The notes under the pieces: model-generated
Told to the model about the DNA's origin: nothing
What the model saw: the letters and a program-made list of their open reading frames with translations, nothing else
The model's database searches: none
Position numbers and translations under genes: made by a program
Assembly: GCA_903916755.1 (NCBI GenBank)
Contig: CAIWXW010000157.1
Span: 1 to 32,656, forward strand
Direction: 5' to 3'
Length of the DNA stretch: 32,656 nucleotides
DNA from: an uncultured Opitutaceae bacterium
GTDB lineage: Bacteria > Verrucomicrobiota > Verrucomicrobiia > Opitutales > Opitutaceae
Part shown: piece after piece, positions 10,042 to 12,525 of the stretch
Numbering within the stretch: position 1 is the stretch's first letter
How the letters are laid out: every line of letters starts with the position of its first letter

Positions 10042-10677
10042 TCAGCGCCAGTAGCCGCGGACGTAGATCGTCCGGCCATCGCGATGATCATAGCGGGGGC
10101 CAACCCACTCATGGCGGCCATGCGGCGGAAGCTCCCAGTGCGCGTTGTACCAGCGGCGCCGGCCGTTCTCCCAGCCCCAATAGCCGCCGATCCACACGTG
10201 ATAGGGGGACGGACGGGGCCCGATGACCACCTCGGCCACGGGCGGCGGCGGCGGCGGGCCGTCAACCACGACTTCCTCGGTCGGCGGCGGCGGAGCGTAT
10301 TGGGGCGGCGGGGGCGGGGGCGGCGGCGCGGCCTGCGCCATTTCCCAGTGACCATCGATCCAGTTGCGGTTCGGATCCCAGTTGCCGGCGACCCAGTAGG
10401 CGCCGGGTTGGGGCGGCAGCATCCACTGGCCGCGGTACCACACCCACTGGCCATTCATCCATGAATAGTGGCCCGGGACCCACATGTAGCCGGGACCAGG
10501 GGCCGCGTATACGACCTCCTGCATGGGAGGCGGCGGCGCGGCATAGACCCGCACGGGCGGCGGGGGGCCAAAGCGGAAGCCGAGGCCGACGCTCACGTGC
10601 TGGGCCTGGGCCGCCAGCGGGAGCGAAAAGGCGAGGGCGAGAAGGGGGACCTTCGCGGAATTGAGGGCAGATTTCAT
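10042..10677 (-). CDS. secreted proline-rich YXWGXW-repeat protein
   Basis: This 211-aa protein has a clear signal peptide (MKSALNSAKV..., cleavage likely after AQA near residue 25). The mature part has two aromatic repeat blocks (YMWVPGHYSW, GQWVWYRGQW, YWVAGNWDP, WIDGHWE, then VWIGGYWGWENGRRRWYNAHWE) separated by long proline runs of up to eight residues. W/Y-x-x-G-x-W/Y spacing of this sort is typical of the YXWGXW family of exported or outer-membrane-associated proteins with no known biochemical role. It is flanked by its own terminator. No Shine-Dalgarno motif precedes the start (CACTCCTATG). The function is unknown; a cell-envelope structural role is a guess. Confidence 0.8.
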   Translation of the reverse strand: MKSALNSAKVPLLALAFSLPLAAQAQHVSVGLGFRFGPPPPVRVYAAPPPPMQEVVYAAPGPGYMWVPGHYSWMNGQWVWYRGQWMLPPQPGAYWVAGNWDPNRNWIDGHWEMAQAAPPPPPPPPQYAPPPPTEEVVVDGPPPPPPVAEVVIGPRPSPYHVWIGGYWGWENGRRRWYNAHWELPPHGRHEWVGPRYDHRDGRTIYVRGYWR

Positions 10678-10893: not shown

Positions 10894-12240
10894 ATGAAAA
10901 TCACCGGGCTTGCCCTTGTCCCGCCCCCGTCCGCCGCGAGCCTGCCGCAGGTCACGCCGGAACTGCTCGCCTCCGTGCTCGCCCGGTATTCGCGCAGCAA
11001 TGAGGGCATCGGCGCCATCCTGGCGAAGGTGGACGTGCAGAACCCCGACGCCTCGATCGACCGCATCCTGAAGTTCGTGGACTATGGCCATGCCTCGATT
11101 GGCGGCCTGACGGGCGGGCTCGCCATCGCGCTCGACGGGATATCGATGTGGCTCGCCTACAAGATTTTTGAGATCGCGCAGATGGCGGACGGCCAGGAAT
11201 CGAGCACGCGCTACATCACGATGGACGCGGCAAACGTTCCCTCCGCCGAGGCGCTCGGCCTTCCCGCCGATCTCGCGCCCCGCTGGTCGAGCGTCCTGGC
11301 CAAGGCCTTTGCCGCCTATCATGCCGAGTACGCGCGGCTCGACGCCTTGGCGGTGGCCGAGCCGGCCCGCGTGCGCACGCCGGCCGACGCCAAGCCGGCG
11401 GTCGCGGCCCGGCTGCGCAAGAACTACGCCCTGGACCGGGCCCGGTATTTCATCCCGTTTGCGACCCGCACCAATCTCGGTCTGGTGCAGACCTCGCGGA
11501 TGTGGGCCCAGACGGTGAAGCAGCTGGCGTCCCTGCCGCATCCGGAGGCCCAGGCCGCCGCGGGCCTGATCCGCGACGAGCTGCTGAAGCAATCGCCCCG
11601 GCTCATGCGCCACAGCTTTGCGGAAAAATCCTGCGAGGAGCAGGCGCGCCAGGAGCTCGCGGCGAGCCTGGCCCTGGGCCGGGAGCGGCTTTCCACCGCC
11701 GCCCTGCCCGACGCGGTCTGGGTTAAGGTGGACCGGACCGTCCCGCCGTGGCTGGCCGAGGAGCAGACCGTGCCGGAGGCCCTGCGCCACCGGCAGAACC
11801 GCTATGGGCTGCAGGGAACCGCGACCCGCCGCATGCGGGTGGCCTTCGCCTGGAACAACATGGCCCTGGCGGAACTGCGGGACCTGAACCGGCACCGCAC
11901 CGGCCACCGGCACACGCCGCTGATCCAGGCGGGATTCTACCTGCCGCCGGAGATCGATCGCGCCGCGCACGCGGAGCTGCTGGCGGAGCAGGCGGAGCTG
12001 ACCCGGGAACTGCTGGAGCGCCGCTCGCCGGCCTATGTCTATTCGCTGCTCTTGGGGGCGCAGACGCCCTTCGAGCACAGCACCCACGCCGACAAGTTCA
12101 TCTACGAGGCGGAACTGCGGACGGGGATGGGCGCACACTTCCGCTACGCCGAGCACCTCAGCGCGGCGCTGAAGTCATTCCTCGACCAGGTGCCCGAGGC
12201 GCGGGAGTGGGTGGTCGAGGGCACGGCCGAGCCGGAGTGA
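10894..12240 (+). CDS. thyX: double-length ThyX-like flavin-dependent thymidylate synthase
   Basis: This 448-aa protein is about twice the usual ThyX length and reads as two ThyX-like halves in tandem. ThyX methylates dUMP to dTMP using FAD and methylene-tetrahydrofolate. Half 1 (about 20-230) has YGHASIGGL and QESSTRY (101-107), matching the second part of the ThyX motif (NELSGRY in Thermotoga maritima, from memory), but IAQ (94-96) where RHR should be. Half 2 (about 290-430) has RHR at 333-335 and FYLPPEI, but lacks the NExSxRY part (HTPLIQA). Arginines equivalent to R147 and R174 of T. maritima appear as R202 in half 1 and R409 in half 2. The start ATG follows GACGTCCC with no Shine-Dalgarno motif. 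Family confidence is high; activity is inferred. Confidence 0.85.
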   Translation: MKITGLALVPPPSAASLPQVTPELLASVLARYSRSNEGIGAILAKVDVQNPDASIDRILKFVDYGHASIGGLTGGLAIALDGISMWLAYKIFEIAQMADGQESSTRYITMDAANVPSAEALGLPADLAPRWSSVLAKAFAAYHAEYARLDALAVAEPARVRTPADAKPAVAARLRKNYALDRARYFIPFATRTNLGLVQTSRMWAQTVKQLASLPHPEAQAAAGLIRDELLKQSPRLMRHSFAEKSCEEQARQELAASLALGRERLSTAALPDAVWVKVDRTVPPWLAEEQTVPEALRHRQNRYGLQGTATRRMRVAFAWNNMALAELRDLNRHRTGHRHTPLIQAGFYLPPEIDRAAHAELLAEQAELTRELLERRSPAYVYSLLLGAQTPFEHSTHADKFIYEAELRTGMGAHFRYAEHLSAALKSFLDQVPEAREWVVEGTAEPE

Positions 12241-12243
12241 CGC

Positions 12244-12525
12244 TCAGGCCCGGCGGACCTTTTCCTTCTCGGCCTCGCGCTCCTCTTCCAGGCGGGCCCG
12301 CTCGTGGGCCATCTGCTGCTTGATCTTCTCGATCTCGTCGGGCTTCTGCGCGGCGAAGGCGTCATCGAGCTGCTTTTTCAGGAAGATTTCGCGCTCGGCG
12401 ATCTTGCCCTGGTAGATTTTGCCGATCTCCGTGAGCCGCGCCTTTTGCCCGGCCGTGAGCGGCTGGTTCGCGCTGGGATCGGACTTGGCCAGCCGCTCCA
12501 TGGCGAGTTCGTAGGATGATTTCAT
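12244..12525 (-). CDS. small charged helical protein, unknown function
   Basis: This 93-aa soluble protein has no signal or membrane segment. The second half is dense in K, E and R with heptad-like spacing (KQLDDAFAAQKPDEIEKIKQQM, then HERARLEEEREAEKEKVRR), so a coiled coil or long helix is likely. It is convergent with thyX, their stops only 3 bases apart. I do not recognise the family. Codon use resembles the neighbours, and the reading frame on the opposite strand is less convincing. Confidence 0.65.
   Translation of the reverse strand: MKSSYELAMERLAKSDPSANQPLTAGQKARLTEIGKIYQGKIAEREIFLKKQLDDAFAAQKPDEIEKIKQQMAHERARLEEEREAEKEKVRRA

Follow-up and report, generated by a model that had tools for sequence, protein, structure and literature searches.

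A tandem ThyX protein of Opitutaceae, large phages and plasmids with complementary active-site residues in its two domains

The 448-residue protein encoded by a 32,656-nucleotide stretch of DNA from an uncultured Opitutaceae bacterium (hereafter the window) consists of two ThyX (Thy1) domains in one chain, confirmed by profile and structure searches. The contact residues of the ThyX active site are split between these domains in a complementary manner, and genomes of the family that carry the gene lack full-length ThyA. We conclude that the protein very probably works as a flavin-dependent thymidylate synthase in which two ThyX domains have been fused and subfunctionalized, with sites built from unlike halves. 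The gene, its two halves and the residues discussed below are listed in Table 1.

ThyX, a target for antibacterial agents, has active sites shared by three identical subunits, and its mechanism is debated. Because of this sharing, a mutation in an ordinary ThyX always affects every role simultaneously. In a natural variant whose roles sit on separate domains, role-specific mutation would become directly testable; if our reading is true, each contact of the debated mechanism could be changed in one role only.

Table 1. Coordinates of the tandem thyX gene, its halves and the aligned active-site residues in the window (Tm, T. maritima; Mtb, M. tuberculosis).
Feature	Position	Strand	Basis
Tandem thyX, 448 aa	10894..12240	+	ORF, ATG to stop; conserved in relatives
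Half 1, residues 1–242, ThyX domain with SxRY/HxS side	10894..11619	+	Pfam Thy1, residues 22–235; model
Half 2, residues 243–448, ThyX domain with RHR and R174 equivalent	11620..12237	+	Pfam in relatives, PDB profile, AF2, Foldseek
H66-A67-S68, equivalents of Tm H53/T55 (Mtb S71)	11089..11097	+	Half 1, alignment
I94-A95-Q96, degenerate RHR position	11173..11181	+	Half 1, alignment
Q101-E-S-S-T-R-Y107 (Q101, E102, S104, R106, Y107 = Tm N85, E86, S88, R90, Y91, respectively)	11194..11214	+	Half 1, alignment
R184 = Tm R147	11443..11445	+	Half 1, alignment
R202 = Tm R165/Mtb R190	11497..11499	+	Half 1, alignment
R333-H334-R335 = Tm R78-H79-R80, RHR motif	11890..11898	+	Half 2, alignment
R409 = Tm R174/PBCV-1 R182/Mtb R199	12118..12120	+	Half 2, alignment

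Two ThyX domains in one chain

The open reading frame was confirmed as a real gene. The best 80 of 182 relatives from genome contigs, all with titles naming Opitutaceae or other Verrucomicrobia, were 77–89% identical to it, and identity was 63–85% across 33 other genomes of the window's family. The genome from which the window comes (3.35 Mb, 93% complete) gave a single Thy1 match.

In the window protein, Pfam Thy1 matched half 1 only (E 2e-10), leaving half 2 unmatched; PHROGs likewise recognized half 1, and a scan with NCBIfam gave no matches. Pfam Thy1 did match half 2 in the copies of genomes G088 (E 2.3e-4) and G143 (E 9.7e-4), both below the curated score cut-off. A second Thy1 stretch was recognized in four of ten double-length relatives (L006, which is the G088 copy, L169, L170 and L171), as well as in both of two further relatives scanned (L180 and L184). 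Searched against PDB sequences, the single window protein yielded chance matches only, so that profiles were required. A first profile matched ThyX through half 1 only; a half-2 profile, searched at E up to 10, matched three distinct sequences, all of them PBCV-1 ThyX (E 5e-4), and aligned R409 with PBCV-1 R182.

The AF2 model of the full-length protein, calculated as a single chain with 37 aligned relatives, had a pLDDT of 91.3 and a pTM of 0.89, and the helix and strand order in it occurs twice. When this model was compared with the PDB, the best 50 of 229 matches were all ThyX (best E 8e-5). Half 2 modeled alone (pLDDT 93.3) gave the same result by Foldseek, the best 50 of 207 matches being ThyX (best E 1e-6, TM 0.47–0.66). 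The full-length model could also be aligned over 493 columns with the 491-aa enzyme of phage Ma-LMM01 (TM 0.60–0.65) and over 477 columns with a 461-aa viral protein (TM 0.72–0.74). A looser match, 432 columns at TM 0.42–0.45, was seen with BFVD entry A0A127AWA5, a 413-aa "thymidylate synthetase" of Bacillus phage SP-15, a phage described as having hypermodified bases in the available part of PMC5977210.

Alignments of the halves by hhalign were weak (E 5e-4, 0.06 and 0.03), and the fold assignment therefore rests on Pfam, the PDB profile and Foldseek. By these, both halves belong to the Thy1/ThyX superfamily (PF02511), half 1 by Pfam and half 2 by profile and Foldseek. An earlier note, made from the DNA letters alone, had described a 448-aa protein with two ThyX-like halves; the profile and structure searches bear this out, and the contrary outcome that it had named, a ThyX fold in one half only, was not what profile, AF2 and Foldseek gave.

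Distribution of the contact residues between the halves

Residue equivalences were taken from the T. maritima PDB sequence and profile alignments. The equivalents of RHR, R174, E86, S88, R90, Y91, H53, T55, R147 and R165 occur once each in the protein, spread over the two halves, so that the FAD/dUMP contact residues are present in the polypeptide except for Tm Q75, where half 2 has Asp (D330). At the RHR position of half 1, hhalign introduces a gap of one residue, giving E93-A95-Q96 as an alternative to I94-A95-Q96, and Arg is absent from the R174 position. S33 of half 1 was equated with Tm S30 by eye only, the profile alignment beginning at residue 44. In half 2, the R147 and R165 positions hold V382 and D400, and neither Ser nor Arg is found at the ungapped S88 and R90 positions. 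The hhalign alignment of half 2 with ordinary ThyX scored weakly (E 0.06) and had the S88 segment gapped, and the exact half-2 counterparts in this segment are uncertain for that reason. A second RHR, at residues 299–301 of the window protein, falls outside the aligned motif and is found in many, though not all, family members.

These alignments agree with most of what the earlier note had assigned by eye: QESSTRY kept in half 1, with IAQ in place of RHR and no Arg at R174; RHR at 333–335 and the R174 equivalent R409 kept in half 2, with SxRY and R147 lost. Its identification of R202 as the R147 equivalent was wrong, as the alignment places R202 at Tm R165 (Mtb R190) and R184 at R147.

The generality of the split was assessed in a set of related proteins. 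The window protein, 129 loci (one of them phage Mvi-JY20) and seven further named phage and plasmid records made up 137 proteins, or 132 after removal of five duplicates; with four rescued Opitutaceae loci and seven more distant proteins (L179–L184 and L174), 143 were compared. The fragment L024, the 102 other relatives of the 182, further family genomes and near-copies among the named records were left out. The set spans Opitutaceae, viral contigs, named phages and plasmids of three phyla.

All 143 proteins have S104, R106, Y/F107 and S/T68 in half 1 and R333, H334 and R409 in half 2; R335 is present in 139, with Asn in the other four. RHR was found at the half-1 position in none of the 143, and none of the 132 has, in the 17 residues that follow RHR in half 2, an SxR with an aromatic residue or His behind it. 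A full contact set inside one half, the other finding that the earlier note had named as contrary to its reading, occurs in 0/143. Among the 132, E102, S104, R106, S68, D330, R333, H334, R335 and R409 are invariant and residue 107 is always Y or F, followed by R184 (131), S33 (131, one protein being truncated), H66 (130), Q101 (129) and R202 (123). H66 is replaced by Asp in 3 of the 143. The contribution assigned below to subunit B is thus not universal, since R202 is missing in 9/132 and H66 is Asp in those three.

Conservation of the half-1 motif is partly a product of selection, because the viral scan patterns contained GQESSTRY and DYGH and our own filter required GQExSTRY; conservation of RHR and R409 was selected by neither, and the tblastn searches that yielded the named phage and plasmid proteins used no motifs. 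Four Opitutaceae loci dropped by the pattern (L044, L054, L065 and L090) have GQESSSRY and retain all scored residues. The seven distant proteins, which include L174 of genome G004, retain S104, R106, Y107, R333, H334 and R409; four of them have RHN and one has Asp for H53, and L184 and L174 lack E102 and have Arg, without Ser, at the half-2 R90 position. The RHN proteins are L180–L183, all four from Bacillus and Paenibacillus plasmids of 203–229 kb. L174, from another family of the phylum, is a distant two-domain ThyX with no RHR in half 1 (HNH is nearby) and QRHR in half 2. The contiguous RHR and SxRY of a canonical ThyX domain lie in separate halves in 143/143 tandem proteins; among 30 ordinary ThyX loci retrieved from the window's phylum they are contiguous in 28, L140 and L142 being unmatched by the pattern. 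In one of the ordinary proteins, L138 (G020), a 3'-5' exonuclease domain (PF01612, E 3e-24) is fused to the C-terminus, and L137, L139 and L141, judged by eye, have the same fusion.

Carriers, gene context and routes to dTMP

Within the window's phylum, the tandem form was found in 22/240 genomes, namely 20 of the 21 sampled genomes of the window's family and two others (46 and 44%). Among the 99 other Thy1-bearing genomes, 94 gave a strong match of the single-domain type (30 loci were fetched). The earlier suggestion of a form shared across the PVC group is correct only in part, nearly all of these carriers being from the window's own family; the tandem form also extends well beyond PVC, to phages and to plasmids of three phyla.

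Other families of the same order had ThyA in 18/18 sampled genomes and Thy1 in none of the 18. In Opitutaceae, tandem ThyX is present in 34/41 genomes, and full-length ThyA is found in 0/34 carriers and 4/7 non-carriers (Fisher P 3e-4); the three genomes with neither are 80–84% complete. Three carriers (G010, G099 and G269) encode a divergent ThyA-like protein whose match to the PF00303 profile is partial but above the Pfam cut-off, and G122, in the 240-genome sample, encodes another (E 4e-19). The family protein (L185 of G099, L187 of G010, and copies in G269 and G245; 4/41 genomes) is about 295 aa long, with a PF00303 E-value of 2e-9. It occurs together with full-length ThyA in G245 and with tandem ThyX in the other three.

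No match to ThyA, thymidine kinase (TK) or the ThyA-like protein was found in the window's own 93%-complete genome, where tandem ThyX is the sole recognizable route to dTMP. A TK match is present in 16 of the 34 carriers and absent from 18, and 16 lack both TK and ThyA-like matches. DHFR_1 was matched in 28/41 family genomes, including the window's own; ten carriers have neither TK nor DHFR_1 matches, among them G088, which is one contig listed as 100% complete. ThyX chemistry yields tetrahydrofolate, and the absence of DHFR therefore fits ThyX.

A viral scan with the single window protein gave no matches, and with an alignment it found 31 relatives in IMG/VR contigs, of which 17 exceed 100 kb and the largest reaches 479 kb. 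The named phage carriers are Mvi-JY20, BONAISHI, Yong MS32, Tunturi_5, Ma-LMM01 and My-WqHQDG, together with an unannotated faecal phage contig; the plasmid carriers are from Parabacteroides, Euzebya, Miltoncostaea, Bacillus and Paenibacillus. A tblastn search with the window protein at 1e-3 recovered none of the plasmid proteins. ThyX is noted in jumbo phages, without domain detail, in the accessible part of the jumbo-phage overview PMC7824862. Nucleotide metabolism genes lie close to several of the related copies: on the viral contig L106, a dUTPase ORF overlaps the start of tandem thyX by 4 bases, on L169 a dCMP deaminase gene immediately precedes it, and on L171 a dCTP deaminase gene lies three genes ahead. 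Among the neighbors scanned, those near the copy on L107 include genes for a clamp loader, head closure and an exonuclease. We also observed a DHH phosphoesterase gene ending just ahead of tandem thyX on L120 (1999–2985) and another about 1.2 kb ahead on L117 (771–1748), with a similar ORF, by appearance only, on L127.

Among the 52 family loci with full flanks, the small ORF at 12244 was matched in 40, a nuoN-like gene in 38, nuoM in 37 and the comEC-like gene in 31 (as paralogues, nuoM and nuoN may cross-match in these counts); the neighboring acyltransferase gene was found in 0/52. A Pro- and Trp-rich, repeat-like ORF between nuoN and thyX (10042–10677, minus strand) had no Pfam match and is present in only 5/52. 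In a tree of 50 rows, using 12 of the 94 family rows, the Opitutaceae copies formed one clade (100/100), with 11 viral rows as sister at weak support (92/57); long branches caution against further reading. The single family clade and the often shared neighbors led us to reject a recent phage-to-host transfer of the window copy. An older transfer may have occurred, the weakly supported sister rows being viral.

Site assembly, alternatives and comparison with known systems

In Mtb ThyX, subunit A contributes RHR (95–97) and R199 to the site, subunit B contributes S71 and R190, and subunit C contributes Q103, S105, R107 and Y108 (PMC6514825). In the PBCV-1 enzyme, Q75 and R182 are supplied by monomer A, S88 and Q89 by its monomer B (PMC3498832), and in T. 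maritima ThyX H53 is supplied by a third monomer (PMC11940539). According to the alignments, half 2 of the window protein retains the A contact set and half 1 retains those of B and C; Mtb R87, of subunit C, has no Arg counterpart. Since the split matches the published subunit origin of the contacts, A can be assigned to half 2 and both B and C to half 1. A complete site would then need two chains, as half 1 stands for both B and C, which are separate subunits.

In the proposed assembly, two fused chains would form a pseudo-D2 tetramer. Half 2 would act as subunit A, providing the RHR and R174 side for the FAD phosphates, flavin N1/O2 and uracil; one copy of half 1 would act as subunit B, with the S68 and R202 side, and another as subunit C, with E102, S104, R106 and Y107 for dUMP and the active-site lid. 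Each fused chain would have one complete site, so that a dimer would have two rather than four, and the remaining two site positions would be dead, combining degenerate sides. This is essentially the fused pseudo-dimer of the earlier note, which would rebuild sites while losing half of them; the folds, the lack of a complete half among 143 proteins and the published contacts support it. The assembly, the single FAD/dUMP site per chain and the conversion of dUMP to dTMP are what we infer from that evidence. More broadly, it seems likely that the ThyX branch found in large phages, plasmids and most Opitutaceae, in which it would be the only thymidylate synthase, is an obligate pseudo-heterotetramer with one live and one dead site per chain, in which the A and the B/C roles evolve in separate domains.

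Recognition of half 1 by Pfam and PHROGs in the window protein would also be expected if half 1 alone were catalytic, as an ordinary homotetramer, with half 2 a structural or regulatory appendage. This is very unlikely given that every protein compared lacks RHR in half 1 and has Arg-His and R409 in half 2; one would not expect an appendage to preserve just those contacts that are missing from half 1. Chance decay in one lineage, leaving a degenerating pseudo-enzyme, would account for the degenerate look of each half in isolation, but we give it practically no weight. The order of the split is identical across all 143 proteins, with identity to the window protein down to 18% (among the 37 aligned first), and conservation within the family is 63–89%; as read from these sequences, the split is not decay.

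An enzyme of ThyX fold could also have a different job, acting on another pyrimidine or a modified base. The relatives in 31 IMG/VR contigs and the replacement of Tm Q75 by Asp are compatible with such a role, and phages may make modified pyrimidines according to the part of PMC7824862 available. We nevertheless consider it unlikely: the dUMP- and flavin-contacting residues are retained, tandem ThyX excludes full-length ThyA within the family, and some enzyme must make dTMP in the 16 carriers without TK and ThyA-like matches.

A thymidylate synthase with sites built from unlike halves would illustrate cleanly how fusion can be followed by complementary loss. The split would also explain why domain models often miss half of such proteins and why certain phage copies are labeled hypothetical. 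Relatives already carry the annotation thymidylate synthase; what is new is the split, how widely it occurs and how it fits the three-subunit site. In the portions of the open-licence literature on tandem, fused, long, phage and chlamydial ThyX that were available, we found no account of a complementary split, although parts of it may already appear in Griffin 2005 or Liu & Yang 2004. Isolated C. trachomatis ThyX is mentioned in the available text as having been used in activity assays.

In fused archaeal tRNA-splicing endonucleases, a homotetramer is reduced to a dimer of fused, subfunctionalized halves. This unrelated enzyme, with an unrelated fold, may serve as an analogy. Closer at hand, the two-domain order and the complementary split are shared with WP_009276148.1, a 539-aa Parabacteroides protein annotated as FAD-dependent thymidylate synthase, with the plasmid proteins of Euzebya, Miltoncostaea, Bacillus and Paenibacillus, and with the 491-aa thymidylate synthase of phage Ma-LMM01; some long annotated relatives differ from the window protein in carrying RHN at the RHR motif or Asp at the H53 position. 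Like the homotetrameric ThyX (FDTS) enzymes of T. maritima (TM0449), Mtb and PBCV-1, the tandem protein has the ThyX fold in both halves, and its RHR, SxRY, HxS and R174 contacts would meet across subunit borders. Unlike them, it has its domains fused, each with a different part of the site, and is predicted to form two sites per four domains instead of four.
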